A stretch of 39,540 bases of DNA from Collimonas silvisoli (GTDB taxonomy: Bacteria > Pseudomonadota > Gammaproteobacteria > Burkholderiales > Burkholderiaceae_D): positions 1-39,540 of the forward strand of contig NZ_JAGQEG010000050.1 in the NCBI RefSeq assembly GCF_018305005.1, read 5' to 3'. The notes under the pieces were generated by a model, which searched no databases, had not been told where the DNA came from, and worked only from the letters and a program-made list of their open reading frames with translations. Shown one piece after another: positions 3,156 through 17,989 of the stretch. The position numbers and the translations under genes were made by a program. Each line of letters starts with the position of its first letter. Within the stretch, counting starts at the first letter, position 1.

Positions 3156-4574
3156 ATGACCAGATCCAACGCGCGCACTTTCAAACGTCCCCAGGAATTC
3201 GGGGCGCTGATGCGACTGATGGATGTTGCAATTCTAGCGGCGGCAGCTCAGCTTGCCAGCTATTTGCGTTTCGGCAGCCTGCTCGATACGGCAGATCACA
3301 TTTACACGGTCATGCTCTGTCTATGCTGCACGCTGGCATTTTTCATGTTTCCGCAATCTGGTGTGTATGTCTCGTGGCGCGGCCGGTTTGTGTCATCCAT
3401 GCTGGGTCGCCTAGCTGCTTCATGGGCTGCGGTCCTGCTGATCGGCCTTCTCTTCAGCTTCCTGTTTCATTATGCGGGCCAGGTATCCCGGCTCTGGCTT
3501 TGCTACTGGTACGTGATGGGGGCCGTGTTGTTGACTGGGTACCGGGCTGCACATTATTTGTTGCTTCGCCGTTTGCGCAGTTACGGATTCAATACCAAAC
3601 GAGTGGTCATTGTAGGTTACGGCCAGACCGGACAGGAAATGCATAAGCGCGCCCGGCAGCAGGAACAATCCGGTTATCACGTCGCAGCCATCTACGTCGA
3701 CGGCCACGACACGCCCGATCTATCTCTCCTCTCCGCTGTTGATCGCATCAAGACGTTGGATGACATCCATGGCTATGCCATGTCAAACCGGATCGACGAG
3801 ATCTGGATTACCTTGCCTGTCAGCGCGTCGTCCCAGCTGCACGAATTGCAGTACATGCTGCGCAACGCCTTGGTGGATATACGCTGGGTGCCTGATATGC
3901 TGGGGCTGCAAATGTTTAGCAGCGGCATGGTCGAATTTCTTGGTTTACCCACGGTAGATTTGAATCGACCGGTCTCCGACGGCCTGGGCGGCATGTTCAA
4001 GCATCTGCTTGACAAACTGTTTGCGGCCGCGGTGTTGGTCGTGCTGTCGCCATTGTTTCTGATCATTGCGGCGGGCATCAAATATGCATCGCCCGGGCCG
4101 GTGTTTTTCAAGCAGGCGAGGCTTGGCCTCAACGGTAAGAAATTCATGGTCTACAAGTTCAGAAGCATGAAAGTGCACCAGGAACATCAGCACGTTACGC
4201 AAGCGACGCAACACGACCTGCGCATCACTCGTATCGGACAATTTCTGCGTCGTACCAGCCTGGATGAACTGCCGCAGTTCATCAATGTTCTGATCGGCGA
4301 CATGTCGGTTGTCGGGCCACGGCCGCACGCAATCCAGCACAACCAGATGTACGAGGAAATCCTGGAGCTGTACATGGCGCGGCACCGGGTTAAGCCAGGT
4401 ATCACCGGATGGGCCCAAATCCACGGCCTGCGCGGGGAAACCGATACCGTCGACAAGATGGAAAGACGGATTGAGTTCGATCTGCATTACATCCGCAACT
4501 GGTCGCTCCTGATGGATCTGCGCATTGTGGTCTGGACTGCTTTCAGGGGATGGACGGGTAAAAATGCGTATTAA
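3156..4574 (+). CDS. Undecaprenyl-phosphate sugar phosphotransferase, WcaJ type (initiates the EPS repeat unit)
   Basis: Encodes 472 residues, the normal length for the WcaJ/PssY polyisoprenyl-phosphate hexose-1-phosphotransferase family. It is predicted to transfer a hexose-1-phosphate, usually glucose, from a UDP-sugar to undecaprenyl phosphate at the inner membrane. The N-terminal half has four membrane segments (about 18-125), followed by a nucleotide-binding-like domain ([14 protein letters not shown], about 150). The C-terminal catalytic sugar-transferase domain starts near 285, with a membrane-associated hydrophobic segment ([20 protein letters not shown]). It contains the conserved motifs [22 protein letters not shown] and the late KPGITGWAQ. 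The start at 3156 has no strong ribosome site; an earlier one lies about 30 bases upstream. It is the first gene of the polysaccharide operon and overlaps the next gene by 11 bp. Confidence 0.92.
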
Positions 4575-5034
4575 CGAAACCCGTCACCGACACTGCATGG
4601 CAGTTGCATCGATTTTCTTTGTATTGCTGCTGAGCGTCGGATCCGTGCCCGGTTATGCCAGGGCGGCCTCCGCCGTGGTTGATCATCGAATACTGCATTT
4701 TGTCGCGTATGGTTTTCTTAGCGCCCTGATCTACAGTTGCTTGGGCGGAGCGCCGGCTCGTCGCGCTCGATGCACCCTGTTAGCGATTGCAGTACTGGGC
4801 GGCCTCGATGAATCGCTACAGAGTTTCCTGCCTTACCGCAATGGCGATTTCAGCGATTGGGGCTGTGACATGCTGGCCGTGCTGTCATGCGTGGCAGTGC
4901 TGGCCTTTTTTCAGGCCAGGAGTGCAGGCAGGAAGGTCGCGCAATCCCGCACACTCATGCTGGCGCCTGATCACCAGGAAGAACCCGGGTATATCCAGCC
5001 AGCGGAAGGAAAGTGTCAACATGCCGCGTCTTGA
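4564..5034 (+). CDS. VanZ-like membrane protein
   Basis: Encodes 156 residues from the ATG at 4564, which overlaps the end of the preceding gene; a GGGGA sequence lies about 15 bases upstream. VanZ-family features are visible: DHRILHFVAYGFLSALIYS (about 42-60), DESLQSFLPYRNGDFSDWGCDMLAVL (split by the conserved Asp-Trp and Asn/Gly positions), and four hydrophobic segments. VanZ proteins are small inner-membrane proteins; the founding member gives low-level teicoplanin resistance in enterococci. VanZ-like genes also occur often in polysaccharide loci, where their role is not established. Its position between the initiating transferase and the flippase suggests a part in lipid-linked intermediate handling, but this is inference. 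It overlaps the next gene by 14 bp. Confidence 0.85.
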   Translation: MRINETRHRHCMAVASIFFVLLLSVGSVPGYARAASAVVDHRILHFVAYGFLSALIYSCLGGAPARRARCTLLAIAVLGGLDESLQSFLPYRNGDFSDWGCDMLAVLSCVAVLAFFQARSAGRKVAQSRTLMLAPDHQEEPGYIQPAEGKCQHAAS

Positions 5035-6238
5035 TATGAAAAAATCCAAGGCGCTGCTGCAAATTATCTTTGAACAGGCAGTCTTCACTCTGACGTTTTT
5101 CGTAACCCAGGCTCTGCTCGCACGCCATCTGAGTGTGGCAACGTTCGCCTCGTTTTCCGCGATTTATTCGGCCGTGATTCTGCTGAACATCGTTCACGGC
5201 AGTACGGTCATGGAGCCATTGCTGGTGTTCGCTAAAGCGAACCGTGCGATCGACCGCAAGTTGCTGCTGATAATGCATCTGCTGATTACGGTATCGAGCA
5301 TATTGGCGGTGATCTATCTGGCGTGGATCATCCCCGGCACGTCGCCGTATTTCGTGTGCGCATTGATTCTTGCGATGACGGGTTTTGTGGCGTACTGGAC
5401 GGTGCGGGCGATATCCATTTTGGACAATGCCAGCCTCAAATCGATCCTGCCTGCACTGGCGCAGCTAGCTGTCGTATGCACAGCAATTGGCTTGATGCCT
5501 GACGACGGCCCCTATCGGTTGAGTGCACTGCTGGTAGCCATCGGCTTGCCGCTGCTATTGACGAGCGCGCTGATCATTGTCATGACTAAGAAGAAAGACG
5601 GTCATCCGGCGCAAGCAGTTGGCGAAAAAATCTCCTGGCTGAGTTTCGGCTTGAACAACTCCCTGAGCCAGATCACGGTCTGGGCCATGACTCATGGCCT
5701 GGTGATTTATTACATGTCCATGCAGGAGTCCGATCTGGCCGCCAGTTTCCGGGTGGTGATGACCTTGGTGCTGCCGGCACAATATCTGAATATCGCGATA
5801 TCGAACTTCGGTTTGCCGCGGCTGGCACGGCTGGCAGATGAAAAATCTGCAAAGTTTGCAGCGATGGCGCGCATGCTGCTTATGGCTACGCTGGCTTCCG
5901 GCCTGGTCTACAGCCTGGTGCTGTGGTTCTGGGGGCAGTCACTGGCAGGGCTGTTGTTCGGCGATAAATACAGTGGCCTGGATATGCATGACTATTTTCT
6001 GTTGCCGGTAATACTGGCGGCGATTCAAGGCATGCGTACCGTACTGAAGGCGCTCAAGCTGACCCGTTACGCCAGCTGGGCGATGGCAGGCGGCTTCCTT
6101 TGTTTCATGCTGGTGTTTGTCGCTAACCCGGTGGCGTCGGTCAGCACGATGTTCGTTCCGACCGTGTTCGGCCTTGGGCTGGCCGCCGTGATCATGTTGC
6201 ACCAGCTCGGAAAAGGGCTAAAGGTGGCGGCATTATGA
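5021..6238 (+). CDS. Polysaccharide flippase (Wzx-like, MOP superfamily)
   Basis: Encodes 405 residues from the ATG at 5021, chosen because AAGGAAAG precedes it by about eight bases; upstream in-frame starts lie inside the VanZ-like gene. The protein is almost entirely hydrophobic, with about 12 predicted membrane helices. It begins with a short basic N-terminus (MKKSKALLQIIFEQAVFTLTFFVTQALLARHLS) typical of oligosaccharide flippases; that motif is quoted in two parts, residues 5-24 and 25 onward. Wzx proteins move lipid-linked repeat units from the cytoplasmic to the periplasmic face. The family has low sequence conservation, so the call rests on topology, length and its place among a WcaJ-type enzyme, a polymerase-like protein and glycosyltransferases. 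It ends in an ATGA overlap with the next gene. Confidence 0.8.
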   Translation: MPRLDMKKSKALLQIIFEQAVFTLTFFVTQALLARHLSVATFASFSAIYSAVILLNIVHGSTVMEPLLVFAKANRAIDRKLLLIMHLLITVSSILAVIYLAWIIPGTSPYFVCALILAMTGFVAYWTVRAISILDNASLKSILPALAQLAVVCTAIGLMPDDGPYRLSALLVAIGLPLLLTSALIIVMTKKKDGHPAQAVGEKISWLSFGLNNSLSQITVWAMTHGLVIYYMSMQESDLAASFRVVMTLVLPAQYLNIAISNFGLPRLARLADEKSAKFAAMARMLLMATLASGLVYSLVLWFWGQSLAGLLFGDKYSGLDMHDYFLLPVILAAIQGMRTVLKALKLTRYASWAMAGGFLCFMLVFVANPVASVSTMFVPTVFGLGLAAVIMLHQLGKGLKVAAL

Positions 6239-7446
6239 AAATCGTGATTTGCGCGGTTCCCTTTAGCGCCAACCTGGGCGATGGCGTCATTTATGAAAAT
6301 ATCCGGGAATTGCTGCTGGAACGCTTGCCGAACGCACACATCAGCGCACTCGATATCGCCGGCCGCGACGATTTTTCCGTGGCTGCCGTCTCCAGGAAAT
6401 CGTTGATTCATAAAGTACCCAAGCTGCTGTTGCCGTCCGCAGTCTGTTTGTATTTCGCCCTGCAATATGTGTTGCGCTGGCGCCGTAAGTGGACGGAGCG
6501 GTTGGCGGGCGCAGACCTGGTGATGATCGGTGGCGGCCAGCTGTTGCTGGATGTTCACCTTAATTTCCCGGTTAAATTATTCCTGCTGTCGTGCATTCTG
6601 AAAACCGTGGGCAAATCCGGCAAGGTCGCTGTTTTCGGCGTTGGCGTTTCGCCATCCATGTCGACTGCGGGAACCTGGCTGCTACGGCGGACGTGGCGCA
6701 ACCTGGCGCCGGTGTACGTCAGCACCCGGGACAGTGCTTCAGCCGAAAACCTGCAACGCATTTTAGCGAGGCCGCTGGACGTCAGCGTTACGCCAGATCC
6801 TGGCGTCTATTCACAACAAACGTTTGCGGCTTTCCTGCCGCAGCGCGGTCCGGGTAACATCCTGGGCATCTGTATTTCCAGTCCGCTTGAGCTGAATCAG
6901 TCCGACCTGGAAAAGCAGGACTACGGCCGGCGGATCGGCGCCTATTTCCTGGAGCTGGCGCGACAAGCCTCTGCATCAGGGTATCAGGTGCATCTGTTTA
7001 CCAACGGCGCGCCGGAAGACGAGGTGTTCAAGAATATGCTGGCGGCTGATCTGAGCCCAGGGCAAGTGCTCAATCTGCCGCGCCCGGCGTTGCCGGCGCA
7101 ACTGGTTGCCAATATCAGCCGCTGCGGTGGTGTCATTGCCCATAGGCTGCACGCCAATATCGTCGCCTATTCGTTGGACATCCCCAGTATCGGCTTAAGC
7201 TGGGACAGCAAGGTACAGTCCTTTTTTTCGCTGACCGGCCGTGACGATTTTTTTATACGAGAGTCCATACCCGACGTAGCCGGCACGCTCAAGCTGCTGC
7301 AACACGCGCTGCAAACTGGCGCAGGCAAGGAAAAGAGCCGCTTGACGCAACAGCTGATGGCGGAAATCTCGACCTTGTTGAACGACTCCGGACTGGCCGC
7401 TACGATGCTGCCGCTGGATTCGATCGCCGGTGCTGCCGTTACCTAG
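6235..7446 (+). CDS. Polysaccharide pyruvyl transferase family protein
   Basis: Encodes 403 residues and starts in an ATGA overlap with the flippase gene. It has the two-domain pattern of the WcaK/AmsJ/CsaB family: an N-terminal LGDGVIYENI loop, a GGGQLLLD turn (about 99-106), FGVGVSPS, the VSTRDSASAENL segment (about 161-172), PDPGVY, and the late HRLHANIVAYSLDIPSIGLSWDSK region (split here at residues about 302 and 312) that typifies the active site. Family members add pyruvate ketals from phosphoenolpyruvate to sugars, giving the polymer negative charge. Its place in the operon predicts a pyruvylated exopolysaccharide. Some relatives have other activities, so the chemistry needs product analysis. 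Confidence 0.85.
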   Translation: MKIVICAVPFSANLGDGVIYENIRELLLERLPNAHISALDIAGRDDFSVAAVSRKSLIHKVPKLLLPSAVCLYFALQYVLRWRRKWTERLAGADLVMIGGGQLLLDVHLNFPVKLFLLSCILKTVGKSGKVAVFGVGVSPSMSTAGTWLLRRTWRNLAPVYVSTRDSASAENLQRILARPLDVSVTPDPGVYSQQTFAAFLPQRGPGNILGICISSPLELNQSDLEKQDYGRRIGAYFLELARQASASGYQVHLFTNGAPEDEVFKNMLAADLSPGQVLNLPRPALPAQLVANISRCGGVIAHRLHANIVAYSLDIPSIGLSWDSKVQSFFSLTGRDDFFIRESIPDVAGTLKLLQHALQTGAGKEKSRLTQQLMAEISTLLNDSGLAATMLPLDSIAGAAVT

Positions 7447-7452
7447 CCCGTC

Positions 7453-8508
7453 ATGCATAAATTATTCGACAGGCGGATTGCGTCGGAAATCAGGCTCATC
7501 GGCTGCGTGCTGATGCTGGCGCTCGCCGCGCTCGTTTATCTGTATCAGCGGGTGTTTTTGCCGAGTTATTTCTTTACCGACGAAACCACGATTCTCAACC
7601 TGATGCGGTATTCCGATCTGGGTTTGCTGGAGCAGAATTCCTTTGTCAGCACCGCCACGGTCTTTTCCGTGTTCGGACCGGTCGGGTCGCAACTGCTGTT
7701 GCTGGCTTCTACCTGCCTGGTGATTTTTTATATCAGCAGGAAATCGCTACGCCTGGTCGATCTGGCGTTTTCTTTTGTCCTGATGCTGTCGTTCGCCATG
7801 TTCAACCTGAAACTGTCGAAAGAAGTGGTGGTTATCCTGATGAACTTGCTGGCGTGCCTGGCCTGCAGCTGGCGTATCTCGAATCATCGCAAGGTGATGC
7901 TGGTAAGCGCGATCTATTTAATCTACGCGTGGCAATTCCGCAGCTATTACGTGCTGATCGTAGCGGCGATGATGGCCATGCACATCGTGTTCAGTACCCA
8001 GGGCAAGCTGCGCGCCACGATTGTGCTGGCTGTTCTGGTTGGCTGCCTGGCGCTGCCGGGAGATTTCTGGAATCAGTTGCAGCAGGCGCGCGATATCGTC
8101 AACCTGGACCGGGACGGCTTGTCGGACTCCAAGACCATCTTCTCGAATCCGTTTTCTCCGAATGGGGTAGCGACGGCTCTTCCGAACGCCGGCTTTGCCG
8201 CGCTGCGCTTTTATTTTGCGCCTGTCTTTTCGCTGCGTGTGCAGGAGGTATTTCTTTCTTTTACCTTGTGTTTCTTGACCTTCGTTTTGTTCCGGCGCCG
8301 CAACTGCAAACATCCGCTGGCCTTGCTGCTGATCGCCAATTTTTCGATCCAGACTTTCTTCGAACCAGACCTGGGATCGTTTTTCCGGCATCTGAGCGCC
8401 TATGCTTTTTGCGTTTTCGGTATTCACTACCTGCAGCCGGTGCATCAAGAAAAATTGCACCGCGCCGTAGCGGTATTTGGATCCCCCAATTTTTACCGAA
8501 AGGCCTGA
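7453..8508 (+). CDS. Polysaccharide polymerase-like membrane protein (candidate Wzy)
   Basis: Encodes 351 residues, starting six bases after the previous stop and ending directly against the next ATG. About nine or ten membrane helices are visible, with a larger periplasmic-type loop in the second half (around 195-245, containing NQLQQARDIVNLDRDGLSDS). This topology suits O-antigen/EPS polymerases, which join lipid-linked repeat units in the periplasm. Wzy proteins share little primary sequence and no diagnostic motif is readable here, so the call rests on topology and on being the only otherwise unassigned polytopic protein in an operon that needs a polymerase. The stretch FFEPDLGSFFRHLSAYAF near the C-terminus is consistent with such proteins but not proof. 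Confidence 0.65.
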   Translation: MHKLFDRRIASEIRLIGCVLMLALAALVYLYQRVFLPSYFFTDETTILNLMRYSDLGLLEQNSFVSTATVFSVFGPVGSQLLLLASTCLVIFYISRKSLRLVDLAFSFVLMLSFAMFNLKLSKEVVVILMNLLACLACSWRISNHRKVMLVSAIYLIYAWQFRSYYVLIVAAMMAMHIVFSTQGKLRATIVLAVLVGCLALPGDFWNQLQQARDIVNLDRDGLSDSKTIFSNPFSPNGVATALPNAGFAALRFYFAPVFSLRVQEVFLSFTLCFLTFVLFRRRNCKHPLALLLIANFSIQTFFEPDLGSFFRHLSAYAFCVFGIHYLQPVHQEKLHRAVAVFGSPNFYRKA

Positions 8509-9615
8509 ATGCCTGACAGTCTGCTGCAAGGCCGCCCGTTAAACGTATTGAACGTTGCGGAAACCATTAAAGGCGGCGTCGCCACCTATCTCGACATGCT
8601 GGAGCATCTCAGCGACAATTTCAATTGCCGCTTCACGCATCTGGTGCCAGCTTCGCAAGCTGAGCAACTCAATGCAGAGCGGGTTCATTGCCATCCGTAT
8701 TCGCGCGGCGGACTGGGACCGTTCAAGCTGGCGCTTGCCATCGTGCGTCAGGTGCGTCTGCAGCGTCCCGATATCGTCTATGCCCACAGCACTTTCGCAG
8801 GCATCGCTCTATGCCTGGCTATACCTTGGCTCGGGCGTAACACAAGAACCATTTATTGCGCACACGGCTGGGCCAGTTTCCGTGATCGGAGCAAGGCGGT
8901 GACCCTGCTCACCAGGGCAATTGAAAAGGTCATGTCTTACATTCCGGATGTGGTCATCGATATTTCTGGCTACGAGCATGAGAATAATCGCAAATTCGGT
9001 TTCTCCGGCAATTGCATTCTGATCCAGAGCACCGTGCTGGACCGGCTGGATCCGCCGCGCAGGAAAAAAAGAGACGATGAGCATTTGCACATGCTGTTTG
9101 TAGGCAGGCTGGACCGTGTGAAGGGTTACGATATTTTGCTGGAAGCCATTCGCAGCCTGCAAAAGAGCCGGCCTGACTACGTTTATCACATTGTCGGTGC
9201 GCCTGTGTCGGCTGATCTGCAGCTTGAAAAGCTGGACGCGCCGAACGTGCATTACTACGGCTGGATAGACCAGGAGGATATCAATACCTACTACGATCTT
9301 GCCGACGTACTGGTGATGCCTTCGCGTTCCGAAGGTTTTGGCCTTACCGCGCTGGAGGCCATGCGCAGCCACGTTCCTGTGATTGCCAGCAATCGCGGAG
9401 CGCTGCCGGATATCGTGGAACATACGGTCAATGGCCTGATCTTCAATTGCACTTCCGCCGACCTGGTAGAGAAGCTTGAAAACCTGAGCCGCCACAGCGT
9501 GGATCGCTACGCGCAAGCTGCAAGGGCCTCTTATCGGGGGCGTTTTTCTCCAAGTCAGTTCATTACCAGCTACCGGAAATTATTCTCCCGCATGCGGGAA
9601 TCGCGTTCCCCGTGA
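8509..9615 (+). CDS. Glycosyltransferase family 4 protein
   Basis: Encodes 368 residues, starting immediately after the stop of the polymerase-like gene, which implies translational coupling since no ribosome site is evident. It has the GT-B fold pattern of GT4 retaining glycosyltransferases: an N-terminal acceptor domain with ETIKGGVATYL, then FVGRLDRVKGYDILLEAI (about 198-215), an HYYGWIDQEDINTYY segment, and the E-x7-E motif in RSEGFGLTALEAM (about 274-286). These enzymes move a sugar from a nucleotide sugar to the lipid-linked acceptor on the cytoplasmic face. It is the only glycosyltransferase here besides the initiating enzyme. Donor and linkage cannot be predicted. Confidence 0.9.
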   Translation: MPDSLLQGRPLNVLNVAETIKGGVATYLDMLEHLSDNFNCRFTHLVPASQAEQLNAERVHCHPYSRGGLGPFKLALAIVRQVRLQRPDIVYAHSTFAGIALCLAIPWLGRNTRTIYCAHGWASFRDRSKAVTLLTRAIEKVMSYIPDVVIDISGYEHENNRKFGFSGNCILIQSTVLDRLDPPRRKKRDDEHLHMLFVGRLDRVKGYDILLEAIRSLQKSRPDYVYHIVGAPVSADLQLEKLDAPNVHYYGWIDQEDINTYYDLADVLVMPSRSEGFGLTALEAMRSHVPVIASNRGALPDIVEHTVNGLIFNCTSADLVEKLENLSRHSVDRYAQAARASYRGRFSPSQFITSYRKLFSRMRESRSP

Positions 9616-9638
9616 CTTCTGCTTAGGGCGTGGATATG

Positions 9639-9665
9639 CAGGTCTCACTTGAAGTGATGCACCTG
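9639..9665 (+). terminator. Possible hairpin terminator after the GT4 gene
   Basis: CAGGT at 9639-9643 pairs with ACCTG at 9661-9665, and an inner TCACT at 9645-9649 pairs with AGTGA at 9653-9657. It is followed by TAATTTTG, a poor U-tract, so termination strength is doubtful. The position, 24 bp past the stop codon, fits the end of the first EPS operon. Confidence 0.4.
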
Positions 9666-9864
9666 TAATTTTGATAAACATCGGTTTTCATGCGGCGCTG
9701 CTGCCAATCGTGCGGACCGAGAGATTGGCGCTGCACAGTCTGCGGATTTTTCTTCGTTTTACGTCAGATCCGGAAACGGGAAAAATGTACTCAGCTGACT
9801 TACAGAAAGCCAAGTCTGGTTCTTGACCGCAAGCCTCCGGAGTGGTGAGGATATTTTCGCTCTG

Positions 9865-9930
9865 TATTTTAAGAGGTTTCCTTCAGTATTTTAAGAGATT
9901 TCCTTAGGTATTCTAAGAGATGTCCTAAGG
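9865..9930 (+). repeat. Three 22-bp tandem repeats, each two 11-bp half-sites (candidate response-regulator binding array)
   Basis: Units lie at 9865-9886, 9887-9908 and 9909-9930 with no spacer. Adjacent units match at 19 of 22 positions. Each unit splits into two 11-mers: TATTTTAAGAG then GTTTCCTTCAG; TATTTTAAGAG then ATTTCCTTAGG; TATTCTAAGAG then ATGTCCTAAGG. OmpR/PhoB-type regulators bind head-to-tail 11-bp direct repeats, and the next gene encodes such a regulator. Binding is inferred. Confidence 0.6.
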
Positions 9931-10150
9931 ACTATTGCAACGATCTGCTTCACACTTCGCATTGTCGTATTTTGACTTTTTTAAGTGCATCAGAGTCCTC
10001 CCTTTTTCGCATCATTTTCAGGTAAGTAATCGCTGGAAATTCGGTAATGCCTGATTTGCCGGCCTATGACAGGCTTCACGAAGAGTTATCTTTAACGATT
10101 CTTCTGATTCTTAAATACTATTTTGAAACCTGTCAGGTCGTTGGGGAGTA

Positions 10151-10168
10151 TTGACATCTTTGACATCT
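10151..10168 (+). repeat. 9-bp tandem duplication TTGACATCT
   Basis: Two exact adjacent copies of TTGACATCT lie at 10151-10159 and 10160-10168, about 60 bp before the response-regulator ATG. Each begins with TTGACA, a perfect -35 hexamer, but no good -10 lies 16-18 bp downstream of either copy. The copies may be a regulator site or a promoter that depends on an activator. Confidence 0.5.
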
Positions 10169-10228
10169 GATTAACGTGCATCGCAAATTGCCAATTGCTT
10201 GCCGCGTGCATAAGGCGATTGGAGGCAT

Positions 10229-10960
10229 ATGGATATTCCGATTAAAGACAACTGTTCAAGCAAAGCTCGCATTGTTGTGATGGACGCCGACGATGCGTTT
10301 CGAAACGCGATCGTTGCCGGCCTGCTCCAGCAGAGGTGCGAGGTGTCGGGGGTGCACGATAGTGCAGCCTTGTATCGAGAGTTAATCGAACGTTCGGTGG
10401 ATATCGTGATTCTCGATGCCGACAGCGCTGACGGCAGCGGCCTCGCTATTGCATCTCAGCTGCGCGCCATGCAGCGTACCTGTCGTCTCGGCATCGTCAT
10501 GCTCGCTTCACAGGACAATATGCATATGTGCGTCGAAGGTCTGCAATGTGGCGCAGACATGTTCCTTGCCAAGCAATCCGATCATCAGGAAATCCAGGCA
10601 AACATACATAGCCTGCATCGCAGGTTGATTTTGAGCTTACCGCCCCAGCAGCGCACGCCATGGCGTTTCAGCCGCAGCGAATGGAAACTGTTTGCGCCGT
10701 CAGGCGCCGAAATCCTGTTGACGCACCTTGAAACGCTGCTGATCGATATTCTTGCAGACAGCCGGGGGCAACCGGTACGCCGCAAAGACATCATATCGAC
10801 CGCGCTTGATCAAAATCCTCTGGTCTACGACGAACGCAGGCTTGAGGCGGTAGTCAGTCGCTTGCGAAAGAAGATTACGAAGATTTACCGGGCATCGCAA
10901 CCGATCAAGGTAGCGCACTCCATTGGCTACATATTCGCCGAGTCTATCGAACGGGCATAG
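10229..10960 (+). CDS. OmpR/PhoB-type response regulator (orphan, EPS-linked)
   Basis: Encodes 243 residues; GGAGG lies six bases before the ATG at 10229. The receiver domain (about 13-130) has the acidic pocket (Asp19, Asp21, Asp22), the phospho-acceptor Asp63 in VILDADSADGSG, Ser94 at the conserved Thr/Ser position, and Lys115 in FLAKQSD. All residues needed for phosphorylation are present. The C-terminal winged helix (about 143-240) includes LTHLETLLIDIL, RRLEAVVSRLRKKI and the hairpin IGYIF. No histidine kinase is encoded nearby, so the partner is elsewhere. It sits between the EPS assembly genes and wza-wzb-wzc, directly after the 22-bp repeat array, and is a strong candidate to control the locus and itself. 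Confidence 0.9.
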   Translation: MDIPIKDNCSSKARIVVMDADDAFRNAIVAGLLQQRCEVSGVHDSAALYRELIERSVDIVILDADSADGSGLAIASQLRAMQRTCRLGIVMLASQDNMHMCVEGLQCGADMFLAKQSDHQEIQANIHSLHRRLILSLPPQQRTPWRFSRSEWKLFAPSGAEILLTHLETLLIDILADSRGQPVRRKDIISTALDQNPLVYDERRLEAVVSRLRKKITKIYRASQPIKVAHSIGYIFAESIERA

Positions 10961-11011
10961 CCGGCATCGGCTGGCCGAAAAAATAGCTTAACCAGCATAC
11001 AGAATCCGGGT

Positions 11012-11038
11012 GCATGCCCTGTTTTTCCTTGGGCATGC
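11012..11038 (+). promoter_or_regulatory. Perfect inverted repeat in the wza leader
   Basis: GCATGCCC at 11012-11019 pairs with GGGCATGC at 11031-11038 around an 11-base loop containing TTTTT. It lies between the regulator and the export gene, about 60 bp before the chosen wza start. It could be an operator or an RNA hairpin; no U-tract follows the stem, so it is not a standard terminator. Confidence 0.45.
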
Positions 11039-11099
11039 GTTCTTGGTACTTGTGCAATACAACGCCATGACAGGCTTACTTTATCAAGTTAGAAATTCC

Positions 11100-12239
11100 A
11101 TGCTTTTTTTTTCAAGAATCCATTTATTGAAGATGGTGATACTGGCGGGATTGATTCCCGCAATTGCGGCCTGTGCGGTTGCCCCTGGCATGCATATGGA
11201 CAATCTGCGTGCGGCAGGCGAAACTGAATCTGGCGCCATGGCCGCGAATTTGAAGCAGATCACGCCGGAATTGCTGCAATCTGAAAAAACAATGCGTGAA
11301 CAGCAATCCAGCCAGGACATCAGCGGATTGCTAGCCGACCCGGAGCCTTACCGCATCGGCAGCGGCGATGTTCTTTCCATCCAGGTGTGGGCCCATCCTG
11401 AGCTTTCTACTCCTGCGATGTCCGGGCAGGCAGCAATCTCCCAGCCTGGCGCTGATAGCGGCAATATTCCAGGCTTTGTAGTCGATCACAGCGGCCTGGT
11501 GCAATTCCCTTTTGTCGGCCCTGTCAAACTAGCGGGCCTGACAGCGTTGCAGGCGCGCGGCTTGCTGACCGACAAGCTTGCCCGCTACGTCAAAGCGCCG
11601 GATCTTACCTTGCGTGTGCAGGCGTACCGCAGCAAGCACGTCTATCTTAATGGCGAAGTCAGGGCGCCAGGGATTGGGGTGATCAACGATATCCCGATGA
11701 CATTGCCGGAGGCGATGGATCGCGCCGGCGGCATCTTGCCGAGCGGCGACCAAAGCCAGATCAGCATTTATCGTGCCGGCGTAACTTATCAGATCAGCTT
11801 GCCGCTGCTTATAAAAAAAGGCATCAATCCAAGTAAGATTTTGCTGGAAAGCGGCGATATCGTCCACGTGCTTTCACGTGAGGAGAGCAAGGTTTTTGTA
11901 CTGGGCGAGGTAACGCGCCCGAGCACACTGACATTGCGCAACGGCCGTTTGACGCTGAACGAGGCGCTCGGCGAGGCCGGCGGCCTCAATCCGCTGACCA
12001 GCAACGGACGCCAGGTCTATGTGGTGCGCAATGCGGGCAACGCAGGGAACATGAAGCCTGTTGTGTACCACCTGGACGCACGCTCTCCCACTGCCTTTGC
12101 CCTGGCAGAGAATTTCGAGCTGTCGGCCAGAGACGTGGTCTATGTCGACGCCGCGCCGCTTGCCACATGGTCTCGCGTCATCAGCCTGATACTGCCAAGT
12201 GCACAGTCGGTCACGAGCGCGGTGCAGGCGGGAAAATGA
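11100..12239 (+). CDS. wza: Outer-membrane polysaccharide export lipoprotein (Wza family)
   Basis: Encodes 379 residues from the ATG at 11100. This start gives a classic lipoprotein signal peptide: basic n-region (Arg6, Lys11), hydrophobic core, and lipobox ending at Cys25 (IAAC). Starts at 11010 and 11067 would place extra hydrophobic sequence in front and have no better ribosome site. The polysaccharide export domain begins near residue 83 (YRIGSGDVLSIQVW), followed by SLBB-type beta-grasp repeats (VYLNGEVRAPG, VFVLGEVTRPS). The C-terminus (WSRVISLILPSAQSV) resembles the amphipathic helix that forms the Wza pore in the outer membrane. Wza octamers export capsule or EPS and dock with Wzc. 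It overlaps wzb by ATGA. Confidence 0.92.
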   Translation: MLFFSRIHLLKMVILAGLIPAIAACAVAPGMHMDNLRAAGETESGAMAANLKQITPELLQSEKTMREQQSSQDISGLLADPEPYRIGSGDVLSIQVWAHPELSTPAMSGQAAISQPGADSGNIPGFVVDHSGLVQFPFVGPVKLAGLTALQARGLLTDKLARYVKAPDLTLRVQAYRSKHVYLNGEVRAPGIGVINDIPMTLPEAMDRAGGILPSGDQSQISIYRAGVTYQISLPLLIKKGINPSKILLESGDIVHVLSREESKVFVLGEVTRPSTLTLRNGRLTLNEALGEAGGLNPLTSNGRQVYVVRNAGNAGNMKPVVYHLDARSPTAFALAENFELSARDVVYVDAAPLATWSRVISLILPSAQSVTSAVQAGK

Positions 12240-12673
12240 TAGCTAACATTCTGGTCGTTTGCATCGGCAACATTTGCCGCAGCCCTATGGCAGAAGGTTT
12301 GTTCAAGCAGGCTCTGCCTGGAATCACGGTGCGCTCCGCCGGGCTGGACGCAATGACAGGCTATCCTGCCGATCCGTTTGCGGTTCAGCTCATGCAAGAG
12401 TTGGGCATCGACATCAGCGGCCATCGCGCGCAGGGTCTAGCGTCCTGGATGATCAGAGAGGCAGATATCGTGGTAACGATGGATCTGGCGCAAAAGCATT
12501 TCATCGAGCAGACGTATCCGACCGCCAGAGGCAAGGTATTCCGGCTTTGCGAATCCGGCAATGGCGATATTCCCGACCCGTACCGGCAGGACCGGGCGAT
12601 ATTCCGCCAGACCTGCAACCTGATTGTCCAAGGGGTAGGCATGCTGGTCGAACGTATCGATCGCGTCAAATAA
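12236..12673 (+). CDS. wzb: Low-molecular-weight protein-tyrosine phosphatase (Wzb family)
   Basis: Encodes 145 residues, starting in an ATGA overlap with wza. The phosphatase P-loop C-x5-R is present at Cys9-Arg15 (VCIGNICRS), and the catalytic acid Asp114 lies in DIPDPY. Length and motifs are standard for bacterial LMW-PTPs. In group 1 EPS/capsule systems this enzyme dephosphorylates the tyrosine-rich tail of Wzc, and the cycle of phosphorylation and dephosphorylation controls polymer assembly. All catalytic residues are intact here, which contrasts with the damaged kinase downstream. The gene ends 26 bp before wzc. Confidence 0.94.
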   Translation: MIANILVVCIGNICRSPMAEGLFKQALPGITVRSAGLDAMTGYPADPFAVQLMQELGIDISGHRAQGLASWMIREADIVVTMDLAQKHFIEQTYPTARGKVFRLCESGNGDIPDPYRQDRAIFRQTCNLIVQGVGMLVERIDRVK

Positions 12674-12699
12674 GAGAATCAGTTTAAATAAACACCGCT

Positions 12700-14817
12700 A
12701 TGAGCCAATACATTCCACCGCCAGCCTCCACCGGCACGCCAGATGACGATAAGATCGACCTGGCAACTTGCCTCGACATCTTGTTCGACCACCGCTGGCT
12801 GATCGTCAACGTTGCTCTGGCTATCACCCTGTTGGGCAGCGCCTATGCGTTTCTGGCCAAACCGGTTTACCGAGCCAATATCCTGATCCAGGTTGAAGAC
12901 AGCCCGGGCTCGTCAAAAAACATATTGGGGGAAATGGGTTCTCTGTTCGATCTTAAGACAGCCGCGATAACGGAGATAGAGATTATCCGCTCGCGTTTTT
13001 TAGTGTCGCATGCAGTGGACAGCCTGCGGCTGTATATCAGTGCCGTTCCAAAATATTTTCCCTTCGTTGGCGCATGGTTCGCAGGCCGCAATGATGAATT
13101 GTCTACCCCTGGGTTATTCGGCTACGGGGGTTATGCTTGGGGTGCGGAACAGATCGATGTTGCGGTCTTCAACGTGCCGGAAGCATTGGAGGATCGCGAA
13201 TTCACCTTGACAGTGGGAAGCGACGGCCGATTCCGCGTAAATCAAAATTCCGAAGGGATCGAGTTCCATGGCGAAACCGGGGTCTTGTTGCATAGCAAGA
13301 CAGCGAAGGGTGATATAGAACTCCGTATTACAAGCCTGGAGGCCCGGCCGGGCGCGCAGTTCTTGCTGAGCCGGACGTCACGGCTTGCTACCATCGAAAA
13401 ATTGCAGCGGGATATGGTGGTCGTTGAAAAAGGCAGGCAGTCCGATATCATCAACGCTGAGCTTGAGGGGACCAAGCCTAAACTGATCAGCGCTATTCTC
13501 AATCAGATCGGCGTGGAATACGTACGCCAGAATCTGGCGCGGAAGTCGGAAGAAGCGGAAAAATCCCTGGTATTTTTAGATCAGCAGCTGCCAGACATCA
13601 AACAGCAGCTGGAACGCTCAGAGACCAAATACAACCAGTTCCGTAACAGTACCGGCATCATCGACTTGGGTGAGGAAGCTAAAGTGCTGCTGCAGCAATC
13701 TGTCGCCGCTCAGCTCAAACGTAGTGAGCTGACGCAAAAAAAAGAAGAACTGTCGATCCGTTTCACCAGCGTGCATCCGGATATGATAGGACTCGAAAAA
13801 CAGCTGCAAGAGATCAACAGAGAAATACAGGCAGTTACGACGCAGATAAAAAAGCTGCCCCTGGTAGAACAAGATGTGGTGCGCTTGATGCGCGATGTCA
13901 AGGTTAATACTGATCTTTACACGTCTCTTTTGAACGTTACGCAGCAGCTGCGCCTGCTGAAAGCCGGCAAGGTTGGCACCGTTCGCCTGGTGGATACAGC
14001 CGCAGTGCCGGAAGAACCAATCAAGCCCAGGCGCACCATCGTGATCGCGGTTGCATTGCTGTTGGGCCTGTTCCTCGGCGTGGTCAGCGCATGGATCAAG
14101 AAATCGCTGTTTGGCGGTATCGATAATGCGCATGAAATTGAGCAAACGCTCGGCCTGCCGGTCTATGCATCTATCCCGCACAGCAGAAAGCAAGAGGAGT
14201 TGTATGCGCGGGTCCGTGCGAAGCTGCCGTTCTCATTGATGCTAGCTAAAAGCGCGCCGACTGACAGCGCTATAGAAGGCCTGCGTAGTCTCCGTACCGC
14301 GCTGCATTTTTCGATGCTGGAGGCAAAGAACAACGTCATATTGATCACCGGTGCAACGCCAAACCTGGGGAAGTATTTCGGTTTGGATCGGGGGAACGGT
14401 TTGTCGGATTTGATTGCGGGGGCCATGTCTTTTGAGCAGGTGGTACATAAAGGAGTGACGGAGAACGTCGATTTTATTTCCACCGGAAACCTGCCGCCCA
14501 ATGCGTCTGAACTGCTGCTGCATGCGAATCTCGGCAAATTGCTCGCAACCCTCAAGGACAGTTATGACTGTGTGTTGATCGACACGCCACCGATACTCGC
14601 GGTATCCGATACGTTGACCGTCGGGCCGCATGCCGGGACTATCTTGATGATTGCACGTTCAGGTATCAGTACTGCCTGCGACATCAGAGAGTCGATGAAG
14701 CGTCTCGATCAGGCCGGCATGTCAGTTAAAGGTATCGTGCTCAATGATGTGAAAGCCCGGCCGGGCGGCTATAACTCCAAATTCGGCAGATATCGGCATA
14801 CAGAATACGCCTATTAA
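12700..14817 (+). CDS. wzc: Wzc-type polysaccharide co-polymerase / BY-kinase with internal in-frame loss of nucleotide-binding motifs
   Basis: Encodes 705 residues with no frameshift. The Wzz-like part is normal: a first membrane helix (about 33-53), a long periplasmic region with coiled coil (about 280-420), and a second helix (about 446-466). The cytoplasmic kinase domain is abnormal. Residues 548-562 read LITGATPNLGKYFGL: the P-loop runs up to Gly557-Lys558, but the next residue is Tyr559 instead of Ser/Thr. The text then continues as YFGLDRGNGLSDLI, which in relatives lies after the Walker A' motif. About 30 residues, including the helix after Walker A and the DxD of Walker A', are absent. 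Walker B (VLIDTPP, about 625) and a short C-terminal tail with four tyrosines are kept. ATP binding and autophosphorylation are therefore predicted to fail. Confidence 0.88.
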   Translation: MSQYIPPPASTGTPDDDKIDLATCLDILFDHRWLIVNVALAITLLGSAYAFLAKPVYRANILIQVEDSPGSSKNILGEMGSLFDLKTAAITEIEIIRSRFLVSHAVDSLRLYISAVPKYFPFVGAWFAGRNDELSTPGLFGYGGYAWGAEQIDVAVFNVPEALEDREFTLTVGSDGRFRVNQNSEGIEFHGETGVLLHSKTAKGDIELRITSLEARPGAQFLLSRTSRLATIEKLQRDMVVVEKGRQSDIINAELEGTKPKLISAILNQIGVEYVRQNLARKSEEAEKSLVFLDQQLPDIKQQLERSETKYNQFRNSTGIIDLGEEAKVLLQQSVAAQLKRSELTQKKEELSIRFTSVHPDMIGLEKQLQEINREIQAVTTQIKKLPLVEQDVVRLMRDVKVNTDLYTSLLNVTQQLRLLKAGKVGTVRLVDTAAVPEEPIKPRRTIVIAVALLLGLFLGVVSAWIKKSLFGGIDNAHEIEQTLGLPVYASIPHSRKQEELYARVRAKLPFSLMLAKSAPTDSAIEGLRSLRTALHFSMLEAKNNVILITGATPNLGKYFGLDRGNGLSDLIAGAMSFEQVVHKGVTENVDFISTGNLPPNASELLLHANLGKLLATLKDSYDCVLIDTPPILAVSDTLTVGPHAGTILMIARSGISTACDIRESMKRLDQAGMSVKGIVLNDVKARPGGYNSKFGRYRHTEYAY

Positions 14818-15251
14818 AAACGATTGAAGAAGGAATGATCTGCTCTCAACAATACAAAACCAAGTGATAGCGCTCGCTCAGTTTCATCAATAATTGAGTG
14901 GTAAAAATGGTTCAGAGTGTTGTAGCGCATTGTGTGTTGATTGCTGCGTGCAATGCTCACAGAAAATCTAGAACCAAACATAAATCGGTCCGACCATACA
15001 AAGTAATGCTGTGCTTGCCCGACTCTTTGAGTTTAGTTACTACACGAGAGCGTAGGGGAGGGCGATTGAGCTTGTTGTGGCCGGTGTGCTTAGTGTATCT
15101 CGGAGGCCAAGCGCTGAATTGCATTTGATATCATTGTTGCAACTTTATGCATCGTTACTTTGTATCGCTGTCGATGTGTCATGCCATGCGTCACGCTAAA
15201 ATACAAAAACAAAAAGGATTACATGCATAGCATGTAATCCTTTGTTTTATT
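14818..15251. other. Non-coding gap between wzc and the tRNA
   Basis: No supported gene. A 76-codon frame at 14898-15128 shows no ribosome site or known domain and is probably chance. The right end holds the tRNA terminator hairpin (15202-15243). No clear terminator for wzc is visible. Confidence 0.6.
15202..15243 (-). terminator. Strong terminator downstream of tRNA-Ile
   Basis: Bases 15213-15226 and 15230-15243 form a perfect 14-bp stem with a three-base ATA loop (core GGATTACATGC / GCATGTAATCC). On the minus strand it is followed by TTTTTGTTTTTG, a good U-tract, so it terminates the tRNA transcript and perhaps read-through from rpoD. It also has T-rich sequence on the plus-strand side, so it may act in both directions. 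Confidence 0.85.
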
Positions 15252-15330
<79 letters not shown>

Positions 15331-15422
15331 AATTCCTTAGGGCACTGTAGTTGTCGTGCTTGCAGTGTCTGCAGAAGACATATCCGCTTAACCGCACTAC
15401 AGCATCTTAAAATCAATCCCGT

Positions 15423-15428
15423 ATTATA
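15423..15428 (-). promoter_or_regulatory. Possible -10 element for the tRNA gene
   Basis: The minus strand reads TATAAT here, followed by a G-rich discriminator (ACGGGAT), about 93 bp upstream of the tRNA 5' end. No good -35 is visible 17 bp upstream. It may let the tRNA be transcribed independently of rpoD. Confidence 0.35.
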
Positions 15429-15456
15429 GAAAAATACCTGGATGAAAGGTAGGTGA

Positions 15457-15502
15457 ATTATCGTGAATCGTTCAAAAAACTCCGAATGATTCACGGATAA
15501 TC
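15457..15502 (-). other. Long hairpin directly after the rpoD stop codon
   Basis: ATTATC plus GTGAATC (15458-15469 region, left arm) pairs with GATTCAC plus GATAAT (right arm, 15488-15501) with one bulge, enclosing a loop with an AAAAAA/TTTTTT run. It begins next to the rpoD stop. No U-tract follows on the minus strand, so it looks more like an mRNA 3'-end stabilising structure than a standard terminator. Confidence 0.5.

Positions 15503-17989
<2,487 letters not shown>

Follow-up and report, generated by a model that had tools for sequence, protein, structure and literature searches.

The wzc gene of an EPS locus in Collimonas silvisoli has lost 96 bp, in frame, from the part that encodes the core of its kinase domain. 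We put the probability at about 60% that this is a young deletion confined to one lineage, in an accessory Wzx/Wzy EPS locus, that normal export from this locus is most likely impaired or abolished, and that the loss is tolerated by way of a second locus, on contig C144 of the same genome.

The window analysed is the whole of contig C187 (39,540 nucleotides), from a genome of 5.66 Mb in 241 contigs. The wzc gene is the open reading frame at 12700-14817 on the forward strand, and encodes 705 amino acids. The start of the P-loop, GATPNLGK, occupies residues 551-558 and is followed directly by Tyr559; the AAG codon of the P-loop lysine is at 14371-14373. The wzc gene of Collimonas antrihumi DSM 104040 has exactly 96 bp (32 codons) more at this point, while the DNA on either side aligns free of gaps, with 92% identity upstream and 93% downstream. 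The two proteins are 92% identical outside the gap and 88% over the whole alignment. An earlier note, made from the sequence, had described an intact frame, the same P-loop residues with Tyr559 after them, and a gap of about 90-100 bp or some 30 residues; the frame and both positions hold, and the measured gap falls within that range. At the junction there is a 3-bp direct repeat, AGT (14372-14374, forward strand), and the precise cut within it is undefined because these bases are common to both edges. The repeat fits a deletion between short repeats, but is weak evidence by itself, since, when a 96-bp deletion is placed at 1611 starts along C. antrihumi wzc, at least three bases of repeat are found for 61 of them (3.8%).

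Because the genome is a draft in many contigs, an error of assembly or sequencing was considered as the source of the gap. At the junction the two sides join cleanly and in frame, and gaps of 96 bp are atypical of short-read errors. Moreover, a search of the C. silvisoli assembly with the kinase region of C. antrihumi did not find the missing 96 bp elsewhere: it returned the two pieces of wzc, one weak match to a second wzc, and short chance matches. An artefact is thus very improbable, and the loss of the kinase core appears to be real in the assembled sequence, unless the reads contradict it.

The 32 missing residues are the equivalents of T541-K572 in E. coli Wzc (7nhr; numbering read off the alignment). 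They take in the Ser/Thr of Walker A (Ser in C. antrihumi), the P-loop helix and the whole of Walker A' (LLIDADFR). An active BY-kinase has a Walker A of the form GxxxxGK[ST], which in C. silvisoli is cut short by the tyrosine, and a Walker A' with DxD, which is absent. Walker B (VLIDTPP) is present, as is a tyrosine-rich C-terminal tail, with four tyrosines between LNDVK and the end of the protein. Both Collimonas proteins have four tail tyrosines and their tails differ by one residue; among homologues, the locus L012 also has four, and L037-L040 have seven or eight. The domain order (Wzz, WZC_N, GNVR, kinase), Walker B and the tyrosine tail are as in E. coli Wzc, a PCP-2a BY-kinase (7nhr, 3la6), from which the C. 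silvisoli protein differs in lacking the equivalents of T541-K572, and therefore in having an incomplete Walker A and no Walker A'.

The profile scores follow the same division. The PCP-2a part is recognised, with PF02706, PF23607 and PF13807 (Wzz, WZC_N and GNVR) above their cut-offs and TIGR01005 at 476.3 bits (cut-off 411.7), and the cytoplasmic domain is fused to it in shortened form. The BY-kinase family TIGR01007 scores 81.6 in C. silvisoli Wzc, below its cut-off of 108.05, compared with 135.8 in C. antrihumi Wzc and 127.6 in the Wzc encoded on C144; AAA_31 scores 21.8 bits (cut-off 27), compared with 46.3 in C. antrihumi. AlphaFold models of the kinase domain have a mean pLDDT of 86.8 and a pTM of 0.84 for C. 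antrihumi, and 71.4 and 0.68 for C. silvisoli, such confidence values not being an assay of stability. The C. silvisoli model has neither the P-loop helix nor the A' strand, because both lie inside the missing stretch. The earlier note had read the lesion as loss of the rest of Walker A and all of Walker A', with Walker B, the tail and the membrane parts retained, which is what is observed, and had expected ATP binding and autophosphorylation to be abolished. The lost motifs argue strongly that ATP binding and autophosphorylation are gone, the drop in model confidence agrees with this, and kinase activity has almost certainly been lost.

The lesion is not shared by the other Wzc proteins compared. 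Comparison was made with 44 Wzc proteins from fetched loci, these being the best matches to C. silvisoli Wzc after duplicates (L003, L035, L036 and L058) were left out, and the kinase region is included in 42 of them. GK[ST] and the DxD-R of Walker A' are both present in 41 of these 42, the exception being C. silvisoli wzc; one of the 41 is the second Wzc of the same genome. Among 33 aligned sequences (C. antrihumi and 32 others), 12 of the missing 32 columns show no variation. Since both motifs are kept in every one of the other 41 readable homologues, the deletion is a derived state, of which C. silvisoli is the only case seen. In the alignment to the Wzc of relatives, which the earlier note had proposed as a check, the gap is absent even from the nearest relative, and this is not the pattern of a pseudokinase conserved across a lineage. 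A stable clade of Wzc proteins without a P-loop was looked for among the 42 readable proteins, in a search that was not exhaustive, and none was seen.

A wider family search of 392 genomes (that of C. silvisoli included) gave a match at E<=1e-100 in 144. Among the matches listed, all except the query's own stop between query residues 556 and 563, at the start of the insert, apart from one (G031) that stops at 438; such alignment ends are no more than indirect evidence. In a search of 60 genomes (again including C. silvisoli), distant matches span the junction inside gapped alignments, and these were left out of the evidence. Two short frames were considered as further cases and rejected. One, in genome G388, is truncated where its contig stops, and it carries the A' motif. 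In the other (L073, G238:C83:24500-28899) the Wzc frame breaks near the P-loop, which may reflect either a genuine frameshift or an error in the draft; GKS and A' remain in the DNA but in a different frame from the N-terminal part, and so this gene is broken in a different way.

The age of the deletion was approached through pairwise ω values between C. silvisoli and C. antrihumi, calculated by the Nei-Gojobori method for eight genes of the locus. The value for wzc is 0.142, the lowest of the eight (which range up to 0.293), and that for its kinase part (residues 501-705) is 0.131; the seven other comparable genes, all open and conserved, have values of 0.16-0.29. The deletion looks recent, because wzc is otherwise so well conserved. 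Of 14 differing sites in the kinase domain, polarised with five outgroups, four changed on the C. silvisoli side, four on the C. antrihumi side and six are ambiguous; the corresponding numbers for the rest of Wzc are 10, 14 and 17, and the end branches of the protein tree are 0.048 for C. silvisoli and 0.032 for C. antrihumi. There is thus no excess of changes on the C. silvisoli lineage that would indicate relaxed selection in this low-power test, and an old deletion followed by decay is not supported. The suggestion in the earlier note that the deletion is recent is well supported, by these counts, by the exact in-frame length, by the short direct repeat and by the absence of the gap from the 41 other readable homologues. 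The ω values and site counts by themselves fit both a young deletion and a remnant that is still under constraint, and do not tell the one from the other.

The EPS locus begins at 3156, with all genes on the forward strand. In order, there is a WcaJ-like initiating sugar-phosphate transferase (3156-4574; TIGR03023, 526 bits against a cut-off of 410.75), a putative Wzx-like flippase (5021-6238), a polysaccharide pyruvyl transferase (6235-7446; PF04230), a putative Wzy-like polymerase (7453-8508), a GT4 glycosyltransferase (8509-9615; PF00534), an OmpR-type response regulator (10229-10960), wza, wzb and wzc. The identification of the flippase and polymerase rests on position and on inspection of their hydrophobic sequence by eye, neither having a family match above cut-off, and the 25 NCBIfam matches shown for the response regulator are all below their cut-offs. 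The wza gene, for the outer-membrane polysaccharide export protein, is at 11010-12239 (Pfam Poly_export, SLBB_2 and Wza_C); its listed start is GTG, and the true start may be further downstream. The wzb gene, for the low-molecular-weight tyrosine phosphatase, is at 12236-12673 (Pfam LMWPc, 2.8e-32). Both look intact, as the earlier note had it, and the Pfam and NCBIfam matches agree. The gene order wza-wzb-wzc is that of E. coli. The wzc product itself, at the end of the locus, is recognised as a PCP-2a co-polymerase (Pfam Wzz, WZC_N and GNVR; NCBIfam TIGR01005) whose kinase domain is without the P-loop helix and Walker A'.

It is worth adding that C. antrihumi lacks about 432 bp (4596-5027), which lie between the WcaJ-like gene and the opening codons of the flippase. 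This was considered as possible damage to the flippase there and rejected, since the gap ends within those codons and the frame is open from an upstream ATG. In addition, between wzc and tRNA-Met C. antrihumi carries a further stretch of about 3.4 kb (L035, reverse complement, 13134-16626), with a 48-bp repeat of the end of tRNA-Met and open reading frames that by eye resemble a transposase, an integrase and a regulator. It is probably an element integrated at the tRNA. By eye it holds no EPS genes, and loss of downstream EPS genes from C. silvisoli was rejected on this ground.

The locus is accessory within the genus. It lies beside tRNA-Met and rpoD in two of 15 Collimonas genomes (C. silvisoli included); for 12 of the 13 others the rpoD side is matched and Wzc matches, if any, are located elsewhere, and for the draft Collimonas genome G004 there is no match on the rpoD side. 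In the GTDB r220 contig collection, from which records near the C. silvisoli genome may be excluded, one such locus was found, that of C. antrihumi DSM 104040. Between the two species, dS is 0.21-0.30 for eight genes of the locus (3156-14817) and 0.30-1.14 for 15 flanking genes (15503-37402; 15 of the 17 open reading frames on that side, one overlapping frame and the last one being left out). The ranges overlap only at rpoD (0.296), the next lowest flanking gene being at 0.449. Values of ω are higher in the locus (0.14-0.29) than in the flanking genes (0.02-0.10). The dS values point to a probable exchange of the EPS locus after the two species had separated.

The C. antrihumi locus has a lesion of its own. 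There, Wzc has intact kinase motifs and is 92% identical outside the gap, as noted above, while wzb has an in-frame deletion of 393 bp (131 codons) that leaves an in-frame remnant of 14 codons (L058:5930-5974). In C. silvisoli the corresponding stretch (12247-12659, forward strand) lies between imperfect 20-nt direct repeats (12247-12266 and 12640-12659), which are 393 bp apart, 75% alike and both contain CTGGTCG; C. antrihumi has a single repeat site, with TTGGTCG. On the side of the midpoint-rooted tree of fetched loci that holds both Collimonas, 20 of the 21 entries have a wzb open reading frame, and the loss is therefore derived in C. antrihumi. The lesion is complementary to that of C. 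silvisoli: the phosphatase is lost in the one and the kinase core in the other. Each species lacks the other's deletion, and both deletions would thus have arisen after the two locus copies last shared an ancestor. A supported branch of nine entries (L041, L042, L044, L045, L050, L052, L053, L054 and L056) has intact kinase motifs and no wzb detected beside wzc, nor was one detected in that position in L014, L015, L023, L024 or L026, some of which are cut short; loss of the adjacent wzb is therefore not rare in itself.

The allele could in principle still work. The frame has been kept and the neighbouring genes are conserved, as would be expected of a working protein, although a recent event would look the same. 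On such a reading, Wzc would be a functional PCP-2 of pseudokinase type, in which the periplasmic part and a remodelled cytoplasmic domain support polymerisation and export independent of phosphorylation, with an altered amount or chain length of polymer. The conserved tail is in its favour, as is the fact that C. antrihumi broke the same phosphorylation cycle at the phosphatase end, and it has precedents. In Myxococcus (EcpK/EpsV) and Caulobacter (HfsB/HfsA), a BY-kinase-like domain acts independently of phosphorylation in a polysaccharide pathway. EcpK is described as a pseudokinase without Walker motifs that is important for EPS (PMC12004946). In those systems, however, the pseudokinase is encoded as a protein of its own, and EcpK is without a tyrosine tail, whereas the C. 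silvisoli case is a fresh deletion within a fused kinase, which retains both Walker B and the tail. An EcpK-like pseudokinase would keep the BYK fold, have no functional Walker motifs and matter for EPS; in the C. silvisoli domain Walker A and A' are lost, Walker B is kept and the model confidence of the fold is lowered.

Catalytic mutants also bear on this reading. The V. cholerae pair VpsO/VpsU is likewise a BY-kinase with a cognate low-molecular-weight phosphatase, for which loss of either activity has been measured: catalytically inactive VpsO (K551A) is reported to give more polysaccharide (VPS), and loss of phosphatase activity less (PMC7485978). Kinase loss therefore need not silence a locus. 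In E. coli, kinase-inactive Wzc K540M is reported to form octamers, and cycling of phosphorylation is proposed to be required (PMC8285477). But the published mutants change one residue in a domain that is otherwise whole, whereas C. silvisoli Wzc has lost a helix and a core strand, with lowered AlphaFold confidence, and EcpK-type proteins are kept within a lineage, whereas here there is a single genome and no sign of long persistence. A functional pseudokinase is accordingly possible but a good deal less probable than the simple loss of function, which is most likely what the allele represents. Disruption of wzc by insertion sequences has been described in capsule-loss isolates (PMC12077207). 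Among the open-licence PMC papers listed, no title or abstract opening dealt with this deletion or with a Collimonas wzc.

The second EPS locus of C. silvisoli, on C144 (G000:C144:22923-33998), has its own wza-wzb-wzc with Walker A and A' intact, followed by homologues of the assembly genes of the C187 locus: flippase (70% identity), pyruvyl transferase (67%), polymerase (69%) and GT4 (74%). A WcaJ homologue (63%) is on the opposite strand and is truncated where the fetched stretch ends. The export proteins are 41-51% identical between the two loci. Another machine may thus export a polymer of a similar kind, and loss of the wzc kinase may be tolerated for this reason. The sequence of events that we favour would be that the 96-bp deletion arose recently in an accessory and recently exchanged locus, that it most likely impairs or abolishes normal export of polymer from the C187 locus, and that the C144 locus, with its homologous WcaJ, flippase (Wzx), pyruvyl transferase, polymerase (Wzy) and GT4, makes the loss bearable. 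The second locus of C. antrihumi (C27) is a different one: the motifs of its Wzc are intact and wzb is present, and the 12.6 kb fetched contains no matching assembly genes except a distant GT4 (26%).

The presence of two loci raises a further alternative, that the deleted Wzc forms mixed complexes with the C144 Wzc, being phosphorylated in trans or modulating its partner. An intact second Wzc in the same genome, the homology of the assembly genes and the four retained tail tyrosines are consistent with this, but the two Wzc proteins are just 47% identical, and there is only a slim chance that it is correct.

Of greater interest than the deletion by itself is its pairing with the loss of wzb in the sister lineage; neither that loss nor the second EPS locus features in the earlier note. 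Two sister lineages may independently, and in frame, have cut the phosphorylation cycle out of the same, otherwise intact Wzx/Wzy locus, as a step towards a pseudokinase-type PCP-2 and export without phosphorylation; we consider this improbable. If it were true, the two loci would be locked in opposite states, with the C. silvisoli protein never phosphorylated and the C. antrihumi protein having no phosphatase of its own to dephosphorylate it. The states would be opposite on the V. cholerae pattern, while on the E. coli pattern both loci would be off. If the allele is simply dead, it represents ordinary decay of an EPS locus under redundancy. The need of Wzc for the phosphorylation cycle, and the effect of locking it, differ among E. 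coli, V. cholerae and Myxococcus, and a natural pair of loci, one without the kinase core, the other without the phosphatase and otherwise alike in their genes, would allow this to be tested outside engineered mutants.
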